From assembly GCF_014904815.1 (NCBI RefSeq), contig NZ_JACZFR010000013.1, positions 1-64,000 on the forward strand: DNA of 64,000 bases. Direction: 5' to 3'. Under the pieces are notes generated by a model that did no database searches, was not told the origin of the DNA, and saw only the letters and a list, made by a program, of their open reading frames with translations. A program made the position numbers and the translations under genes. Numbering within the stretch: the stretch's first letter is position 1; each line of letters opens with the position of its first letter. The stretch comes from Microbulbifer taiwanensis. Lineage in GTDB: Bacteria > Pseudomonadota > Gammaproteobacteria > Pseudomonadales > Cellvibrionaceae. Positions 41,682-50,466 of the stretch are shown here, in pieces.

Positions 41682-42002
41682 GTGCGGCCAAGATATCCGG
41701 GGAGACCGGTCCCGGTCTCCCCCTTTTTCCCCACTGGATCCCATAATCTCGCCTACTCAATCAATTGCGCGCCAATGCATTGATTTGAACGCCCCATTAC
41801 TTTAAAAGCGAATTACAGGATAAATAAATCCGTCATTTTGCTATTCATTAGTACCAGATAGCCGGCGGAGGATGGGTTGAAGGACCAGACCCGCAGTACC
41901 GTTTGCCGCCGGCCGCGCAGAGCCCAGCTGTTTAGCGGATAGTCCCGCCTTTCAATCGCTTCCACTCCTGCCTGAAAAAATAATTACTTGGGGCAATCCA
42001 AT
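41682..42002. other. Intergenic region before the subtilase gene
   Basis: 320 bases without a gene. It has a terminator at its left end and an A+T-rich part at 41780-41860 that probably carries the protease promoter; no -35/-10 pair stands out enough to name. Confidence 0.5.
41699..41728 (+). terminator. Rho-independent terminator after the monooxygenase-GST pair
   Basis: Perfect 10-base stem GGGGAGACCG / CGGTCTCCCC (41699-41708, 41713-41722), 4-base loop, then TTTTT at 41724-41728. Confidence 0.85.
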
Positions 42003-44984
42003 ATGAAAAAAACGGTAGTTACCGCATTGATTGCGGGCCTGCTGCTGTCGTTCGGCAGTCTTGCAGAACCCGACAAGGGCAAACTCAAGCCCGACTTCAA
42101 CAAGAAGAGAAAAATCTACATTGTGCAACTGGCCGAGGAGCCTCTGGCCGCCTATGAGGGCCATATTCCCGGTCTCGCGGCCACCAAGCCGCGCGCCAGT
42201 CGCAAAATGAATCCGCAGAGCAGCCAGTTCCAGCACTACGCCGATTTCCTCAAGTCGCGCCGCGAGCAGGTGCTGTCCGCGGTGCCCGGCGCGCGCAAGG
42301 TGCACGAATACAAGGTGGCCTTCAACGGCTTCGCCGCACTGATGAGCAGCAAAGAGGCGGAGACGCTGCGCGCACGCAAGGATGTACTCGGCGTCTGGGA
42401 GGACAAGCTGCTGAAGCCGCAGACAGACTCCACCCGGGATTTTCTCGGCCTGACCGGCATCCGCGGTCCCTGGCTCTGGGGTATCACCGGCGAGGATGTG
42501 GTGATCGGCGTGATCGACAGCGGCATACACCCGGAACACCCCAGTGTGGCCGACGTGCCCACGCCGAAACGCGGTGATCGCGGGCGCGAAATTTCTTTCG
42601 GGCCCGCGCCGGAGCACTTCGTCGGCGAGGGCTGTGATTTCGGCAACAGCGACTTCAACCCGGCGGACGCGCCTTTCGAGTGCAACAACAAGCTGATCAA
42701 GGCGCAGTCCTTCTCCGAATCCTTCCTGACGGTGAATACACTGGCGGACTACGAGTTCCTGTCCGCGCGGGATGCGGACGGTCACGGCACTCACACAGCC
42801 ACCACTGCAGGCGGCAACTACGGTGTCGAGGGACCGGCCGGCGGCACTCTCAGCGGCATGGCGCCGCGGGCGCGGGTGGCCGTGTACAAGGTGTGCTGGG
42901 ACGCACCCAACCCGGATGACAGCGGCTGCTTCTCGTCCGACTCCATGGCCGCCATCGACCAGGCAGTGGCCGACGGTGTCGACGTAATCAACTTCTCCGT
43001 TGGCGGCAGCAGCACTACGTTCAACGGCCCGGACGATATCGCCTTCCTGTTTGCTGCCGATGCCGGTGTCTTCGTATCCGTCTCCGCCGGCAACAGCGGT
43101 CCGGGCGCCGAAACCATCGGCACCCCCTCCGGTGTTCCCTGGGTCACCTCGGTGGCCGCCGCCGAAGACAACCAGAATTTCGGTACCGGGCTGCAGCTGG
43201 ACGCGCCGGCGGATATCGCCGCCACCTTCGAGGGCCTCGAGGGCGGCGGCCCGGTGCGGCTGGCAGATGTCGGCGCCATATCCGCCTCGGTAATCGCCGC
43301 AGAACCGCTGGACGCCTGCGGGCCCCTGGCCAACGCCGCAGAGATGGAAGGGCAGATTGCGCTGGTGATTCGCGGCGCCTGTGCCTTTAGCGACAAATAC
43401 AACAATGCCGCCGCCGCCGGCGCCCGCGCCATCGTCGTCTACAACGACGGTACCGCTGCCGACCGGATGGACCCCATCGTGATGTCTGCGCCGGATACCA
43501 CCATTCCGGGTATTATGATCCGCCACCCGGACGGCGACCTGATCGCATCCAGTGCCGACAGCGCCGGTACCCTGAGCCCGGAAATCCAGGTGGCGCGCGA
43601 GGATCGCATCACCGGCTTCTCCTCCCGCGGCGCCAACGCCGGTGCGCCGGATATCATCAAGCCGGATGTGGCGGCGCCCGGCGTCGGTATCATCGCCGGC
43701 ACCACGCCAGTCTCCAGCGGCGGCAGCCTCTTCGCATCCCTGAGCGGTACCTCCATGGCCAGCCCCCATGTGGCCGGCGTCATGGCCCTGCTCAAGCAGG
43801 TGCACCCGGAGTGGACCCCGGCGATGGCCAAGTCCGCACTGATGACCACCGCGCGCACCGGACTGCGCAAGTCCTTCGGCCCGCAGGCGGCGGACCCCTT
43901 CGATATGGGTGCCGGCGCCATAGACCCGGGTGCCGCCTTCAGTCCGGGCCTGGTGTACGACGCCGGTCTGGCGGACTACTTCGCCTTCCTTTGCGGCGCG
44001 GAGAATCAGCCGCAACTGATCGATCCCGGCACCTGCACTGAGCTGGAATCCGGCGGTTATTCCCTCGACTCCAGCGACCTGAACCTGGCCTCCATCGGTA
44101 TCGCCGAGCTGGCCGGCAGCCAGACCATCACCCGCCGCGTCACCAATGTAACGCGCGGCAGCAAATGGTTCTGGGCTTCCGTGGACGCGCCCGCGGGCGT
44201 GGATGTGCAAGTCAATCCGCTGATTCTGCGCCTGCGGGAGGGTGAGAGCGCCAACTTCGAAGTCACCTTTACCGCCACCGATCAGGCACAGCTCGGCGAC
44301 TGGGCTTTCGGCGCCCTGACCTGGCGCTCGCTGGGTAATCGCTTCGAGGTGCGCAGCCCCATCGCCGTGCGCCCGGTGCCCATTGCTGCGCCGGCGCAAC
44401 TGAGCGCCAGCGGCAGCGACGGCTCCCTGAGCGTTGATGTGCAGTTCGGCTACAGCGGTGCCTACCAGGCGCAGATGAACGGCCTGGCCGAGGGGATTCC
44501 GTTCCCGGGTGCAGTGGAGGACGGTGGCGACAACTTGATCTTCTTCGACGTACCCGAGGGCACTGACCTGGCCCGCGTGGCACTGTTCGACGCGGATGTG
44601 GGTACCGGCGACGGCTCCGACGACCTGGACCTGCAGGTCTACGGCCCGGCTCCGGACTTCCCGCTGGTGGGCAGCAGCGGCTCCCCGACCTCTGCGGAGG
44701 CGGTAACCATGCGCGATCCACAGGCCGGCCAATACGCGGTCTTCGTGATCGACTACGCCTCTGCGGCCGGACCGACGCCCTACACACTGTTCAACTTCAA
44801 CCTGACTGGCGACGCCGGCAATTCGGTAGTTGGCGCGCCGACTGTGGCAGCGGTGGGACAGAGTGGAGAAATCTCCATCGAGTGGATGGGGCTGGCGCCG
44901 GGCATCCGCGCCCTGGGCCTGCTCGGTCATGGCGACGGGACACAGACGTTTGCCGAAACCGAAGTGATGGTTAACACCCAGTAA
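42003..44984 (+). CDS. Secreted S8 family serine protease (subtilase) with PA domain
   Basis: 993 residues from the ATG at 42003 (GGGG upstream). Signal peptide of about 22 residues (MKKTVVTALIAGLLLSFGSL), an inhibitor I9-like propeptide (about 35-130), and the catalytic domain with D172 in GVIDSGIHP, H261 in DADGHGTHT and S584 in SGTSMASPHVAG. A PA-type insert sits between His and Ser (about 390-500). After the catalytic domain follow a fibronectin-like subtilase C-terminal region and a last PPC-like beta domain (about 805-960). Single gene with its own terminators on both sides, so a stand-alone exoenzyme. Secretion path beyond the inner membrane is not shown. Confidence 0.92.
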   Translation: MKKTVVTALIAGLLLSFGSLAEPDKGKLKPDFNKKRKIYIVQLAEEPLAAYEGHIPGLAATKPRASRKMNPQSSQFQHYADFLKSRREQVLSAVPGARKVHEYKVAFNGFAALMSSKEAETLRARKDVLGVWEDKLLKPQTDSTRDFLGLTGIRGPWLWGITGEDVVIGVIDSGIHPEHPSVADVPTPKRGDRGREISFGPAPEHFVGEGCDFGNSDFNPADAPFECNNKLIKAQSFSESFLTVNTLADYEFLSARDADGHGTHTATTAGGNYGVEGPAGGTLSGMAPRARVAVYKVCWDAPNPDDSGCFSSDSMAAIDQAVADGVDVINFSVGGSSTTFNGPDDIAFLFAADAGVFVSVSAGNSGPGAETIGTPSGVPWVTSVAAAEDNQNFGTGLQLDAPADIAATFEGLEGGGPVRLADVGAISASVIAAEPLDACGPLANAAEMEGQIALVIRGACAFSDKYNNAAAAGARAIVVYNDGTAADRMDPIVMSAPDTTIPGIMIRHPDGDLIASSADSAGTLSPEIQVAREDRITGFSSRGANAGAPDIIKPDVAAPGVGIIAGTTPVSSGGSLFASLSGTSMASPHVAGVMALLKQVHPEWTPAMAKSALMTTARTGLRKSFGPQAADPFDMGAGAIDPGAAFSPGLVYDAGLADYFAFLCGAENQPQLIDPGTCTELESGGYSLDSSDLNLASIGIAELAGSQTITRRVTNVTRGSKWFWASVDAPAGVDVQVNPLILRLREGESANFEVTFTATDQAQLGDWAFGALTWRSLGNRFEVRSPIAVRPVPIAAPAQLSASGSDGSLSVDVQFGYSGAYQAQMNGLAEGIPFPGAVEDGGDNLIFFDVPEGTDLARVALFDADVGTGDGSDDLDLQVYGPAPDFPLVGSSGSPTSAEAVTMRDPQAGQYAVFVIDYASAAGPTPYTLFNFNLTGDAGNSVVGAPTVAAVGQSGEISIEWMGLAPGIRALGLLGHGDGTQTFAETEVMVNTQ

Positions 44985-46679: not shown

Positions 46680-47966
46680 TCACAAATCCCGGGCGCAGTC
46701 ACCGCGGGAACGGCCCTGTACAAACGCTTGGACAATTTCCAGTGCCACGCTGCCGAAATCCCAGAAGACTTCTGTCTTGCGGTTGATGTTTACGGCCACC
46801 GACATTTCATAGTCCGGCAGTACCATCAACCAGCTCTGGCTGCCGCGTGACACGCCGCCGTGATTGGCGTGGCGCAGCACTCCCAGCTGCGGAATTTCCA
46901 TTTCGCGGTAGCGCCAGCCGAGGGCATAGTGCTGCGGGTTGGCTTCCCCGTTGGCGAGTTTCTGCGGTGTCCAGAAAATTTCGCGGGTTTCCGCAGAAAT
47001 AAAATCCGTATCCAAATAGCGGCTGCCGAGTTTCACCAGATCTGACGGCGTGGAGACAAATCCGCCTCCGGGCAGACGGTGGCTCAGGTCCACAGGCCGC
47101 CACTCACGCAGGCGGTGTTTCGCCCCGAACAAACCGTTACTTTTGTAGAAAGTAGCGATACCTTTTTCGTGATCGCCATTAAGCGGAGATGGTATGGTCG
47201 CCGTCATTCCCGCCGGATCGAAGACTTGCTCCTGCATCAGTTGCAGATAATTTTTTTGCGCCGCGCTGGCCATGGTTGCGCCGAGCAGCACCGTGTGAAA
47301 ACTGGTGTAGTGGAACCGACTACCCGGCCGGTACAGGAGCGGGTTGTCGTCGAAGACGTCGAGCGCCTCAACCATGCTGTCGAAGTGATTCCGCAAAGCC
47401 AGTGTGTGATACAGCCCGAGCCAGTCTCTGTTTTCCTTGTAGTCCGGCAGTCCCGCCATATGGGAGGCGAGCTGGCGCGGTGTTATCTGCGCCCATTCCC
47501 CGTTGGGGAGCGGATCAAGGTAATTAGCGATGGGCGTATCCAGATCCATGCGCCCACTCTGCACCAGGCGCGCCAACGCGGTTCCCGTCAGCGCCTTGGC
47601 GGTGCTGCCGATGCGAAAGCGGGTTGCCGTGCTGACCGGTGTCCTGGACTCGATATCCGACCAACCGCTGGCGCCCGCCCATACCAAGCGGCCACAGGCG
47701 GAAACGGCTGCGGAGATTGCCGGCGCTGCAACTTTTTTTCGATGCTTTTCCAACACCGTCAATGAAAGTTTCGCTGCCTCAGAATAATCCGGATCGTAAA
47801 TTTCCTGCACCGATGGGCCATCGTCCGGAAGCTTCAACCACCCAAATGGAGGCAGTGGCATGGAGCCCTTGTTATAGGCAAAAAACTGGTAGGCGGGCCA
47901 CAGCAGCCAGCCGATTAATATCGCCAGTGACAATGCCGCCAGCAGCTTTCGGTTTATCTTTTTCAT
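46680..47966 (-). CDS. Serine hydrolase, class C beta-lactamase / PBP4* family
   Basis: 428 residues. N-terminal membrane anchor or signal (residues 8-30), then the beta-lactamase-like fold. The active-site S121-T-A-K124 tetrad is in FRIGSTAKALTGT; the second motif reads YTS within FHYTSFHTVLLG instead of the usual YxN. The C-terminal part has HANHGGVSRGSQSW, which takes the place of the KTG/HxG box. Such proteins include esterases, D-aminopeptidases and true beta-lactamases, and the motifs do not decide. It follows the M56-ankyrin protease by 52 bases in the same direction, which suggests that it is regulated by the BlaI-type repressor upstream. Confidence 0.88.
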   Translation of the reverse strand: MKKINRKLLAALSLAILIGWLLWPAYQFFAYNKGSMPLPPFGWLKLPDDGPSVQEIYDPDYSEAAKLSLTVLEKHRKKVAAPAISAAVSACGRLVWAGASGWSDIESRTPVSTATRFRIGSTAKALTGTALARLVQSGRMDLDTPIANYLDPLPNGEWAQITPRQLASHMAGLPDYKENRDWLGLYHTLALRNHFDSMVEALDVFDDNPLLYRPGSRFHYTSFHTVLLGATMASAAQKNYLQLMQEQVFDPAGMTATIPSPLNGDHEKGIATFYKSNGLFGAKHRLREWRPVDLSHRLPGGGFVSTPSDLVKLGSRYLDTDFISAETREIFWTPQKLANGEANPQHYALGWRYREMEIPQLGVLRHANHGGVSRGSQSWLMVLPDYEMSVAVNINRKTEVFWDFGSVALEIVQAFVQGRSRGDCARDL

Positions 47967-48018
47967 CCCGATTCCTTTTTGATTGGCTAACCGGTGCGTG
48001 AATTTAATCTGGAGTTTT

Positions 48019-49764
48019 TTATTCTGTCGCGCCCGCGTGGATTAAATAATCGCGTACCGCATTGTTGCGCGCCCGGTTGAGCGGCGTTCTGAGTTCATTG
48101 CCGTTGGCCATGACACCGAGATTGACGTCGGCTCCCTGCTCTACCAGGAAACTGACCATTTCCAGATGGCCGTGGTATGCAGCATTGATCAGCGGTGTCT
48201 CATCGGTTGAAACCACGCCATTTACATCGGCCCCCTGTTGGTGAAGCCGTTTGGCAATTTCAAGATTGCCGTTCATGGCTGCGGCAATCAGCGGGCTTCC
48301 GTCCCACTCGGCGGCCTTATTGACATCGGCTCCCCACTCGATCAGCTGTTCCGCCATGTCGTCGTGACCTGCACGGATGGCAACAATCAGCGGCGTGCCC
48401 TCCCTGGGCACTACGGTGTCGAGGTCCGCGCCCCGCTGGTAAAGCAACTCGGCCAGCTCCATGCGGTTGTGTTGCGCGGCTGTGATCATCGGGTTGCCGT
48501 CACCCGGCGACGACAGATTCACGTCCGCGCCTGCACCGATCAACAGCTCCGCAATTTCGTGCCTGTTGTGGCGGACCGCCTCTATCAGGGCTGTGCCTTC
48601 ACCCAATACCGGCGTATTGATCTCGAGGCCGCTGTTCAGCATTTCCGTCAGCGCCGGCAGATCGTTTGCGCGAATGACTCCCATCAGCCGCTCTCCCTCG
48701 ACGCGTGACAGTGCATTACTTTTCATTATCGCCAGATCTATTCGCGGCGCGTATTCCTGGGCAGCGCCGAGGCTGGCGATGGCGAAGACGGTACAGGCGG
48801 TCGCGGTGGTCAGAAGTTTTGGTTTTTTTGCACTTTTGAGTTTCAGGACGGCATTGATCCTCGCTGCCAGATCCTTCTTTTTACTGAAAAGCCCCATAGC
48901 CATCAGGTTCTGTCGCCGGGTGATCATCAGCTCGGCACAGTCGAGTAGGGATTGCGCATATTGCTTGCCGCTCTCCAACACATGGGCCGCGCGCATATCG
49001 CAGGCCAACTCCCTGGAGACATGGATTTTTCGCTCAATCAGTCGCATCACCGGGCTCCACCAGAAGACGATGGCGACCAGCTCCTGCAGGGTGCCCACCC
49101 AGAGATCCCGGCGCTGGATATGGGCCCACTCGTGCAGGATGATCGGTGCCAGCCGATCGCTGTCGAAACGCTCGACAAAAGATTGCGGCAGCAGGATTAC
49201 CGGCTTCAGTAGACCCGCGGCCATCGGCGCCCTGGCACTCGCGGATACGAGCAGCGGACATGGGACCCGTTTTTTGTCGCAGTCTTCATAGGGCACTGCG
49301 GCTCGAACAAGCCGGCGCGTGCGACGGATCGATAGCACCACCCCGACCGAACGCCAGGTGCTACCCAGCAGCCAGACCAATAGGAGAATATGCAAGCCTG
49401 CACTCGCCTCACTGATCCACAGCGGGGAGAGTTGCCACTGGAATTTGTCACCGCCTTCAGGGGCGGGCGGCGCAGTTTGCGCAGACGCGGCGCTGCCGGT
49501 GGTCACCGGCGGCGCCTCCATCACAGGTTCAGCAATCTGCGCGACCTTTGTGGCGGGCGCTGCCGCCGGCGACTCCGCGCTCGATATCAGCGACGCAAAG
49601 GGAAGCAGCAGGCAGATGGCGAAGGCGGTGGTCCAGATCCAGCTCTGCAGTTCCGCGCTCGGTCGCCAAAGCCGGGTAGCAGCCGTCAACAGCAGTATCA
49701 GGCAACTCCCGATCAGCAGGTGGTGCAGGGTAAAGGTCGTGAACAGTGTCAGTTCAAAAAGCAT
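48019..49764 (-). CDS. M56 (BlaR1-type) membrane metalloprotease with C-terminal ankyrin repeats
   Basis: 581 residues. N-terminal membrane helices at about 11-30 and 43-62, a further one near 121-141, then a cytoplasmic zinc protease part with H211-E-W-A-H215 and the third-ligand segment SRELACD near 250. A fourth helix at about 317-336 is followed by about seven ankyrin repeats (356-580), with recurring A...G..ADVN units. In BlaR1 and MecR1 this last helix leads to an extracytoplasmic penicillin-binding sensor; here ankyrin repeats take its place and should face the periplasm. It starts 14 bases after a BlaI-type repressor and precedes a serine hydrolase. Likely role: signal-activated cleavage of the repressor (inferred). 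Confidence 0.9.
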   Translation of the reverse strand: MLFELTLFTTFTLHHLLIGSCLILLLTAATRLWRPSAELQSWIWTTAFAICLLLPFASLISSAESPAAAPATKVAQIAEPVMEAPPVTTGSAASAQTAPPAPEGGDKFQWQLSPLWISEASAGLHILLLVWLLGSTWRSVGVVLSIRRTRRLVRAAVPYEDCDKKRVPCPLLVSASARAPMAAGLLKPVILLPQSFVERFDSDRLAPIILHEWAHIQRRDLWVGTLQELVAIVFWWSPVMRLIERKIHVSRELACDMRAAHVLESGKQYAQSLLDCAELMITRRQNLMAMGLFSKKKDLAARINAVLKLKSAKKPKLLTTATACTVFAIASLGAAQEYAPRIDLAIMKSNALSRVEGERLMGVIRANDLPALTEMLNSGLEINTPVLGEGTALIEAVRHNRHEIAELLIGAGADVNLSSPGDGNPMITAAQHNRMELAELLYQRGADLDTVVPREGTPLIVAIRAGHDDMAEQLIEWGADVNKAAEWDGSPLIAAAMNGNLEIAKRLHQQGADVNGVVSTDETPLINAAYHGHLEMVSFLVEQGADVNLGVMANGNELRTPLNRARNNAVRDYLIHAGATE

Positions 49765-49778
49765 GGGGGGTCCGCCGA

Positions 49779-50156
49779 TCAGTCCGTTTCGTCGATTTTC
49801 TTCTGCAGTGACTCGAGATCCTTCAGGTCGATTTCCGTCTCGCGGATCAGGTGCTGCGCCAGCAGTTCGGGTGAACTGCCGAAGAAACGATTGAGCAGGC
49901 TTTTGAGCGCGCTCTGGCGGGCCTCGGTGCGGCTGATGCAGGCGCGATAGACAAAGGCGCGCCCCTCCTTGCGATAGTCGGCGTAGCCTTTATCCGCCAG
50001 GATTTTGCACATGGTCTGGACCGTGGTGTAGGCGGCGGGCTTGTCCGCCGAAAGCGCACCGGCAATCTCCTTGACCGAACACTCGCCCCGCTCCCACAGA
50101 ATTTCCAGAATACTCTGCTCGCCATCGGTGAGCTGATCGGATTTTCTTCTGGCCAT
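49779..50156 (-). CDS. BlaI/MecI/CopY family repressor
   Basis: 125 residues. Winged helix with LTDGEQSILEILWERGECSV and AAYTTVQTMCKILADKGY, the recognition helix of BlaI. The C-terminal dimerisation helices contain LLNRFFGSSPE (N89-R-F-F92), close to where Staphylococcus BlaI is cut between Asn and Phe. It is the first gene of the operon with the M56-ankyrin protease, and two operator-like palindromes lie just upstream. Confidence 0.92.
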   Translation of the reverse strand: MARRKSDQLTDGEQSILEILWERGECSVKEIAGALSADKPAAYTTVQTMCKILADKGYADYRKEGRAFVYRACISRTEARQSALKSLLNRFFGSSPELLAQHLIRETEIDLKDLESLQKKIDETD

Positions 50157-50466
50157 GATTCAACCTACTAATTGTTTAGTTTTTAACTCTAAGAACACGA
50201 GCTTGAGCTGTCAACTAATTAATTAGTTTTTACTCTTGAACGGAACGATCAGTTTGAGCAAGGAAGAACAGAGAACTATTGATGGCGACGGGAAACCTAT
50301 GTGACCCAGATGAAAGAGTACCGGGCGCCCTATCCGGAGGTCAGCAGTACTATGTACGAGGCGCTGACCAATCTGATCGCGGCGTTGCCGGAAGCCCAAC
50401 TCTCCACTGGGGAGTCGTTAGATTGAAACGCATCCTTTTTCCCTACGATGTTTTTCCCTGATACCG
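50157..50466. other. Intergenic region between blaI-type and GlxA-type genes
   Basis: 310 bases. The left part holds the blaI promoter and operators. The right part, 50283-50426, is a short open stretch of 47 codons that reads like the end of a protein (ending LPEAQLSTGESLD) but has no start or upstream part; it may be a gene remnant or chance. Confidence 0.45.
50167..50227 (-). promoter_or_regulatory. Promoter and two operators of the BlaI-type operon
   Basis: On the minus strand TTGACA (50214-50209), 17 bases, TAGAGT (50191-50186). A perfect palindrome ACTAATTAATTAGT (50214-50227) touches the -35 box and an imperfect copy ACTAATTGTTTAGT (50167-50180) lies just past the -10 box. Two sites flanking a promoter are typical for BlaI autoregulation. 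Confidence 0.7.

Follow-up and report, generated by a model that had tools for sequence, protein, structure and literature searches.

BlaR1 is the textbook example of a receptor protease that passes a signal across a membrane. How sensing on the outside of the cell controls cleavage on the inside is an outstanding question that, according to the excerpted text of PMC9834060, has been answered in part by structures of BlaR1. Here we describe a relay of this type located within the window, a 64,000-nucleotide stretch of Microbulbifer taiwanensis DNA (contig NZ_JACZFR010000013.1, positions 1 to 64,000), in which the protease is fused to an ankyrin-repeat domain. As in the BlaR1/BlaI and MecR1/MecI systems of Staphylococcus aureus, a repressor gene lies beside the gene for an M56 gluzincin that has an HExxH...ExxxD site and a C-terminus predicted to be outside, the protease contains an autocleavage-type loop, and palindromic operators are present at the promoter. 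In contrast to BlaR1 and MecR1, ankyrin repeats replace the penicillin sensor, the putative repressor cleavage site reads LAQH/L rather than Asn/Phe, and there is no adjoining beta-lactamase or PBP2a gene. The operators also differ, since those of BlaI and MecI are of the TACA/TGTA type, whereas the predicted pair in the window is ACTAATNNATTAGT instead.

Ankyrin repeats within the periplasm have a precedent in the exported AnkB of Pseudomonas aeruginosa, which is not fused to a signalling protease. No description of a fusion between BlaR1, M56 or MecR1 and ankyrin repeats was found in open-access full texts, a search that covered neither subscription papers nor protein-database annotations. 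The suggestion in the original prediction that the circuit may be undescribed is therefore borne out within the open-access papers searched, and we consider the locus to be a real, conserved and apparently undescribed variant of the BlaR1 relay.

Gene order and protease fold

The operon runs on the minus strand, where a gene for a BlaI-family repressor is followed after 14 nucleotides (nt) by the gene for the M56-ankyrin fusion, and after a further 52 nt by a serine hydrolase gene (Table 1). The open reading frames (ORFs) and Pfam confirm this three-gene row, as well as the coordinates and both gaps given for it in the original prediction, and the three genes are predicted to lie behind one promoter. 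The nearest named relative of the M56-ankyrin protein is from Microbulbifer rhizosphaerae (79% over residues 1–581). In total, we compared 35 non-redundant complete M56-ankyrin loci, comprising 34 canonical loci and the divergent L050; second copies (L091, L047, L118 and L119), L045 at a contig end and L051, which has no ankyrin domain, were dropped before counting.

The protease part of the fusion scores 116.8 bits with the peptidase family M56 (PF05569, gathering threshold 31), and the HEWAH noted earlier is indeed intact. The residues of the HExxH...ExxxD zinc site, namely H211, E212, H215, E252 and D256, are invariant in 33 of 33 rows of an M56 alignment that leaves out the loci dropped above as well as the near copies L043 and L117. 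Asp220 and Arg302 (D220 and R302) are likewise invariant across these 33 rows, and Y269 is near-invariant. H211, E212, H215, D220, E252, D256, R302 and Y269 align with His201, Glu202, His205, Asp210, Glu242, Asp246, Arg294 and Tyr261 of BlaR1, respectively, which are named as catalytic or stabilising in the excerpted text of PMC9834060.

At the level of sequence, the M56 part matches S. aureus BlaR1 with 4.6e-10, and remains below the NCBIfam BlaR1 cut-off (76.2 bits against 400). A fold search with the whole model was filled with ankyrin chains, and the M56 part was therefore modelled and searched apart. The top five structural matches of this model are all S. aureus BlaR1, with Z-scores of 15.0–16.5 (413 Foldseek-preselected chains aligned), and comparison with BlaR1 8exr gives 2.9 Å over 220 residues. 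As modelled, the membrane and protease part has the BlaR1 fold.

Table 1. Features of the relay operon, in window coordinates
Feature	Position	Strand	Basis
Operator 1, palindrome ACTAATTAATTAGT, overlaps -35 box	50214..50227	.	0 mismatches to ACTAATNNATTAGT
Promoter-like TTGACA-17-TAGAGT between operators	50186..50214	-	10/12 matches
Operator 2, palindrome ACTAAACAATTAGT, between -10 box and blaI	50167..50180	.	1 mismatch to ACTAATNNATTAGT
BlaI/MecI-family repressor, 125 amino acids	49779..50156	-	Penicillinase_R 1.2e-30; matches BlaI and MecI structures
Repressor residues 99-103 LAQHL, at the position where BlaI of S. aureus is cut (Asn101-Phe102)	49848..49862	-	Alignment with MecI
M56 protease-ankyrin fusion, 581 amino acids	48019..49764	-	ORF list, Pfam, model
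Peptidase_M56 (BlaR1-type gluzincin) domain, residues 18-305	48850..49713	-	Pfam 1.4e-33
Zinc site HEWAH, residues 211-215	49120..49134	-	Alignment
Residues 288-292 MAMGL (family LAMGL), place of BlaR1 autocleavage site	48889..48903	-	Alignment
Last membrane helix, residues 317-338, ending LGAAQ	48751..48816	-	Helix prediction, model
Ankyrin-repeat domain, residues 354-580, predicted periplasmic	48025..48705	-	Pfam, model
PF00144 serine hydrolase, 428 amino acids, LACTB-like, hydrophobic N-terminus	46680..47966	-	Pfam, sequence comparison
Hydrolase STAK motif, residues 121-124	47595..47606	-	SxxK of PF00144

Position and topology of the ankyrin domain

Four membrane helices are predicted in the fusion protein, and the region following the last of these is recognized as ankyrin repeats (Pfam Ank_2, 9.4e-51). 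The predicted ankyrin helices span residues 354–576 and form six helix pairs and a cap, with a mean predicted local distance difference test score (pLDDT) of 79–98 per ten-residue block from residue 361. The model reproduces the ankyrin fold with a Z-score of up to 27.8 over 220 residues. Both the repeats and their position after the last helix agree with what had been proposed from the DNA letters, and the earlier count of about seven repeats comes close to the six helix pairs and cap seen here. A penicillin-binding sensor with an SxxK motif is not found after the last helix; rather, the ankyrin repeats occupy its place. Pfam, the model and the BlaR1 fold of the protease thereby support the presence of an ankyrin domain in the penicillin-sensor position of a BlaR1-type protein.

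On average, 4.15 lysine and arginine residues precede the last helix and 1.76 follow it, and the number before the helix is the larger in 31 of 33 homologues. Additional evidence comes from genome G834, where a stand-alone ankyrin gene (L126, 3456–4100, minus strand) is located beside an M56-ankyrin gene and has its own perfect operator pair. The repeats of this paralogue are 51% identical over 202 residues to those of the neighbouring fusion, and are preceded by a signal-peptide-like N-terminus. We compared nine ankyrin ORFs, one of which is the G834 fusion, taken from seven chosen match regions and L126 (L169 and L170 are near copies). Signal-like hydrophobic N-termini, as assessed by hydropathy and by eye, are observed for seven of the eight stand-alone ORFs, the exception being L173, which appears rhodanese-like by eye. 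On the basis of the charge bias, the G834 paralogue and the signal-like starts of the relatives, we conclude that the ankyrin repeats are very probably periplasmic, as originally proposed, and the BlaR1 fold of the M56 part agrees with such a placement. Most known ankyrin domains act in the cytoplasm and L173 has no signal-like start, both of which would favour repeats that are cytoplasmic and control the protease or the repressor from inside. This arrangement we reject as highly improbable, given the charge bias and the signal-like N-termini described above, as well as the match of the predicted helices to BlaR1, for which the excerpted text of PMC9834060 places both the N- and C-terminus outside. 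The LGAAQ at the end of the last membrane helix looks by eye like a signal-peptidase site, less clearly so in other rows, and signal peptidase is reported to cut BlaR1 at Gly331; we regard this as a resemblance only.

Repressor, operators and putative cleavage sites

The repressor scores 106.7 bits with Pfam Penicillinase_R (gathering threshold 22.6). Residues Leu99 to Leu103 of the repressor align with the region of S. aureus BlaI that is cut by BlaR1 between Asn101 and Phe102 (PMC9834060, excerpted text), and the motif L[AT]QHL occurs in every one of the 40 aligned repressor rows of the canonical lineage, a set that includes second copies, L045 and L051, but excludes the divergent L050. Self-cleavage of BlaR1 is described in the same text as occurring between Ser283 and Phe284, with Leu280 at the P4 position. 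The aligned equivalents are M288-A-M-G/L292 in the protease and L99-A-Q-H/L103 in the repressor. Among the 33 M56 rows, the protease loop is of the LAMGL type in 25 and of the xA[QM]x(W/F) type in seven, such that the loop resembles the repressor site at P4, P3 and P1' in 32 rows, as would be expected if one active site cuts both. The protease loops of the divergent L132 and L134 read FAQHF and LAQRW, which are nearly the same letters as the LAQHL of the repressor.

Two ACTAATNNATTAGT-like palindromes flank the promoter 5' of the repressor gene in 33 of the 34 canonical loci, when sites are chosen by likeness to the consensus with at most two mismatches. The consensus over the canonical loci is AAAACTAATTAATTAGTTGA and AAAACTAATTAATTAGTAGA, with a start-to-start spacing of 45–49 nt. 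The half-sites ACTAA and TTAGT are 94–100% conserved in both palindromes and the middle positions 73–97%, whereas positions between the palindromes are mostly 27–67% conserved. Two elements depart from this, namely the TTGA that extends from palindrome 1 and, at a distance of 17 nt, a TA (94 and 97%); these fit the -35 and -10 boxes, respectively. The promoter-like element of the window lies between the two palindromes, and bound repressor would therefore be expected to block it, although by count promoter-like matches do not exceed those in shuffles (2 found against 1.5 expected).

An independent test of operator conservation is provided by genome counts. Within the Pseudoalteromonas neustonica family, the operator pair is present in 21 of 246 genomes and the fusion in 21, a lower bound with the best 4–6 first-look candidates per genome scored, and 20 genomes are common to both. 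The reversed control of the operator-pair pattern gave 0 matches in the same 246 genomes. Thus, two independent searches, for the fusion and for the operator pair, mark nearly the same set of genomes. The fusion genome missed by the operator-pair search (G961) is one base off the pattern, and the extra operator-pair match in G846 was judged unrelated, being located between two genes that by eye resemble coenzyme A lyases. With respect to a wider regulon, the window genome contains no more extra operator-like sites than the control pattern, namely two further one-mismatch single sites compared with three sites per strand for the reversed control.

Taken as a whole, we consider it probable that the locus encodes a BlaR1-type one-component relay in which a periplasmic ankyrin domain serves as the sensor. 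In the absence of signal, a dimer of the BlaI-family repressor would bind both palindromes and thereby repress the operon that encodes it. The ligand would be periplasmic, and is most likely to be a protein or peptide. Once bound within the ankyrin groove, it would shift the sensor with respect to extracellular loop 1 and to the helix behind that loop, whereupon the cytoplasm-facing M56 site would become competent, as has been proposed for BlaR1. The protease would then cut the repressor within the LAQH/L stretch, which is akin to its own autocleavage loop LAMG/L, and the derepressed operon would supply the relay together with a membrane-anchored LACTB-like hydrolase facing the periplasm. In relatives, this place would be taken by an MBOAT acyltransferase and its DUF1574-like partner, for which O-acylation of envelope polymers is a possible function.

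Downstream genes, possible sensor exchange and spread

The hydrolase belongs to PF00144 (189 bits against a gathering threshold of 27, E 1.7e-55), and carries YTS at residue 220 and HGG at residue 369 in addition to the SxxK motif. Its hydrophobic N-terminus is a probable membrane anchor. The closest solved structure by sequence is human LACTB (7.2e-40), with the next, unrelated entries at 6.5e-19 and weaker. LACTB and the window hydrolase are both members of the SxxK family, but the latter is bacterial and is encoded beside a repressor-protease relay. Of the earlier interpretation we retain the BlaR1-type relay and the periplasmic ankyrin domain. A cell-wall or envelope protein as the ligand, envelope stress as the stimulus and action of the hydrolase on the wall find no support here, and the solved structure closest to the hydrolase is that of LACTB and not of a beta-lactamase.

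We also carried out the tabulation of neighbours of M56-ankyrin genes that was suggested with the original prediction, typing downstream genes by blastp to reference neighbours. Pfam was applied to three hydrolases (window, L041 and L050), two MBOAT proteins and a single DUF1574-like partner, the DUF1574 score of which was below the cut-off. The downstream genes of the 35 loci vary: a PF00144-type hydrolase is present in 15, an MBOAT with a DUF1574-like partner follows the relay in 12 (L036–L040, L043, L044, L049, L117 and L120–L122), and neither output enzyme is found in eight (L034, L035, L042, L123, L134, L048, L124 and L126). Within the last group, the contig of L048 ends about 1 kb on, L124 retains a remnant of the DUF1574-like partner, and a stand-alone ankyrin gene follows in L126. 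Because the MBOAT pair is found in 12 of 35 loci and neither enzyme in 8 of 35, the hydrolase, which does recur as a PF00144-type gene downstream of the relay, is not the defining output. With the same counts, we do not favour the hydrolase itself as the ligand. Twelve of the 15 hydrolase genes directly adjoin the relay and three lie behind an alpha/beta-hydrolase gene, which is absent from the window and from L093. Between the M56 and hydrolase genes, this gene is whole in L046 and apparently split into two frames in L033 and L092. The hydrolase of L127 is the most distant among the canonical ones.

The variable neighbourhood raises the alternative that the repressor controls its own relay only, and that the hydrolase and MBOAT genes are bystanders with separate control. 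The eight loci with neither enzyme suggest that the neighbours may be loosely tied to the relay. In addition, the gap between the M56 and MBOAT frames is about 90–240 nt, in most cases close to 200, and the MBOAT genes may have a promoter of their own. Apart from a two-mismatch site in L038, the MBOAT loci show no operator within 330 nt downstream of the M56 gene. We nevertheless regard the bystander arrangement as unlikely, since the M56 stop codon and the start of the hydrolase gene overlap in L041 and L125, the two genes are 52 nt apart in the window, and the divergent L050 relay likewise has a PF00144 gene behind it. Along with these gaps and loci, several further observations weigh against the proposed relay. 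The repressor is below the NCBIfam BlaI/MecI cut-offs (39.5 against 180 and 28.5 against 250), and its best NCBIfam score is with CopY/TcrY (TIGR02698), which is also below the cut-off (69.8 against 121.95). L042 has a single palindrome only, and operator conservation is partly built in, since similarity to the consensus was the basis for selecting sites. L050 is the only M56 row without the loop motif, and both the autocleavage and the repressor cleavage site are placed by alignment only. Lastly, the model shows no order in extracellular loop 1 (pLDDT <50 at residues 63–108), and docking of this loop in the ankyrin groove is therefore no more than a candidate contact.

The sensor and the hydrolase also bear on whether the locus represents a beta-lactam or wall-damage alarm, with the hydrolase acting as a beta-lactamase or DD-peptidase. 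Class C beta-lactamases carry KTG where the hydrolase has HGG, and the NCBIfam bla_class_C model gives 51.1 bits compared with a cut-off of 415. The sensor has no penicillin-binding domain, LACTB is the nearest solved structure, and the MBOAT pair takes the place of the hydrolase in 12 of 35 loci. Thus, we consider an alarm of this type quite improbable, even though staphylococcal beta-lactamase and PBP2a are under the control of BlaI and M56 relatives (PMC9834060 and PMC7593790, excerpted texts), and the hydrolase, as an SxxK enzyme of PF00144, weakly matches AmpH and DD-carboxypeptidases. The hydrolase and the MBOAT pair both hint at acyl chemistry in the envelope. In an extended form of the relay, which we put forward tentatively for marine gammaproteobacteria, the ankyrin receptor would read an envelope protein or peptide and switch on envelope acyl chemistry, by means of the LACTB-like hydrolase in some and the MBOAT O-acylation pair in others. 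At least one genome would add a secreted sensor copy, controlled by an operator pair of similar type, as a decoy or co-receptor that binds the ligand and tunes the response, and the ankyrin module would have been attached to BlaR1-type relays at least twice.

The divergent relay L050 of genome G003 has a repressor that is 21% identical and an M56 part that is far away in the tree, whereas its repeats share 42% identity with the window repeats. The sites upstream of L050 appear by eye to be TTACA..TGTAA-like, unlike ACTAATNNATTAGT. In a tree of 72 M56 rows, two changes are required to explain the ankyrin label, and the approximately unbiased test rejects one common ankyrin clade (p-AU 4.3e-5, or 0.0027 when L009, the L051 protein, is added). 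This suggests that L050 is a second fusion of the ankyrin module to a BlaR1-type relay, an interpretation that is weakened by the long branch of L050. When L050 was used as the query against all 144 genomes of the window family, the six canonical fusions were the only ones found besides G003 itself. Conversely, L051 (5683–7637, minus strand, G028) has the same repressor type and operators, but a different C-terminal part of ~200 amino acids and no ankyrin domain, and its M56 adjoins the main ankyrin clade in the tree. From the patterns of L050 and L051, the sensor seems to be exchangeable.

A different C-terminal domain after the last helix is also found in M56-M23 fusions. L002 (G000:C78:170645–171283; also L054) is the only other M56 match in the window genome, and has a BlaI-like ORF beside it and a close relative in G793 (L080). 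Unlike the window fusion, L002 carries a C-terminal M23 domain (LytM-like, by eye), and its M56 is distant in the tree. According to the excerpted text of PMC9662197, M56 peptidase domains occur in M23 proteins, with no role shown there.

We also considered that the ankyrin domain could provide dimerisation, a scaffold or a tether for a partner, with the state of the membrane or wall being signalled via the helices or loop 1. The variation in repeat number (581 compared with 514 amino acids, or about two 33-residue repeats) and the ankyrin-less L051 with its shared repressor family and operators are consistent with a scaffold. However, the domain is located at the sensor place of BlaR1, a divergent lineage of M56 proteins carries it as well, which would be expected for a sensor module, and the G834 paralogue represents the domain without a protease behind the same operators, which together make a structural role unlikely. 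If the ankyrin domain is the sensor, as we propose, then this conserved family couples the BlaR1 engine to a sensor of quite another kind, which allows engine and sensor to be considered separately, and it offers a defined operator and cleavage motif. BlaR1-type relays may accordingly serve Gram-negative bacteria as periplasmic receptors in general, rather than as antibiotic alarms alone. Since ankyrin domains can be re-targeted in the laboratory, the relay could become a model for transmembrane receptor-protease signalling.

The fusion is present in 6 of 48 genomes of the window genus, counting its own and the divergent G003, and in three genomes (G022, G044 and G047) of two other genera of the window family. 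Broad samples at E <= 1e-30 contained at least 2 of 293 in the order and at least 1 of 369 in the class, with the own genome counted in both and candidates scored as for the P. neustonica family. With few matches in these samples, families known to hold the fusion were therefore sampled. A tblastn search of the fusion against PLSDB for plasmid spread gave no match at 1e-15. Near-identical operators accompany the fusion L035 from a metagenome-assembled genome (MAG) labelled Opitutales and the contig-cut M56 gene L045 from a MAG labelled Alphaproteobacteria, which may reflect transfer or misbinned MAGs.

Terminator-like sites number 7, compared with 4.0 +/- 1.8 in shuffles, and one of them, a five-pair stem, lies directly 3' of the hydrolase gene (46658–46646), in a stretch that folds no better than shuffles (z 0.16). 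Convergent to the operon is a large ORF that resembles a subtilisin-like serine protease (41988–44984, plus strand), antisense to which is a 1019-amino-acid ORF that is probably spurious. A similar subtilisin-like ORF is also located downstream of the hydrolase in L033 and L046.

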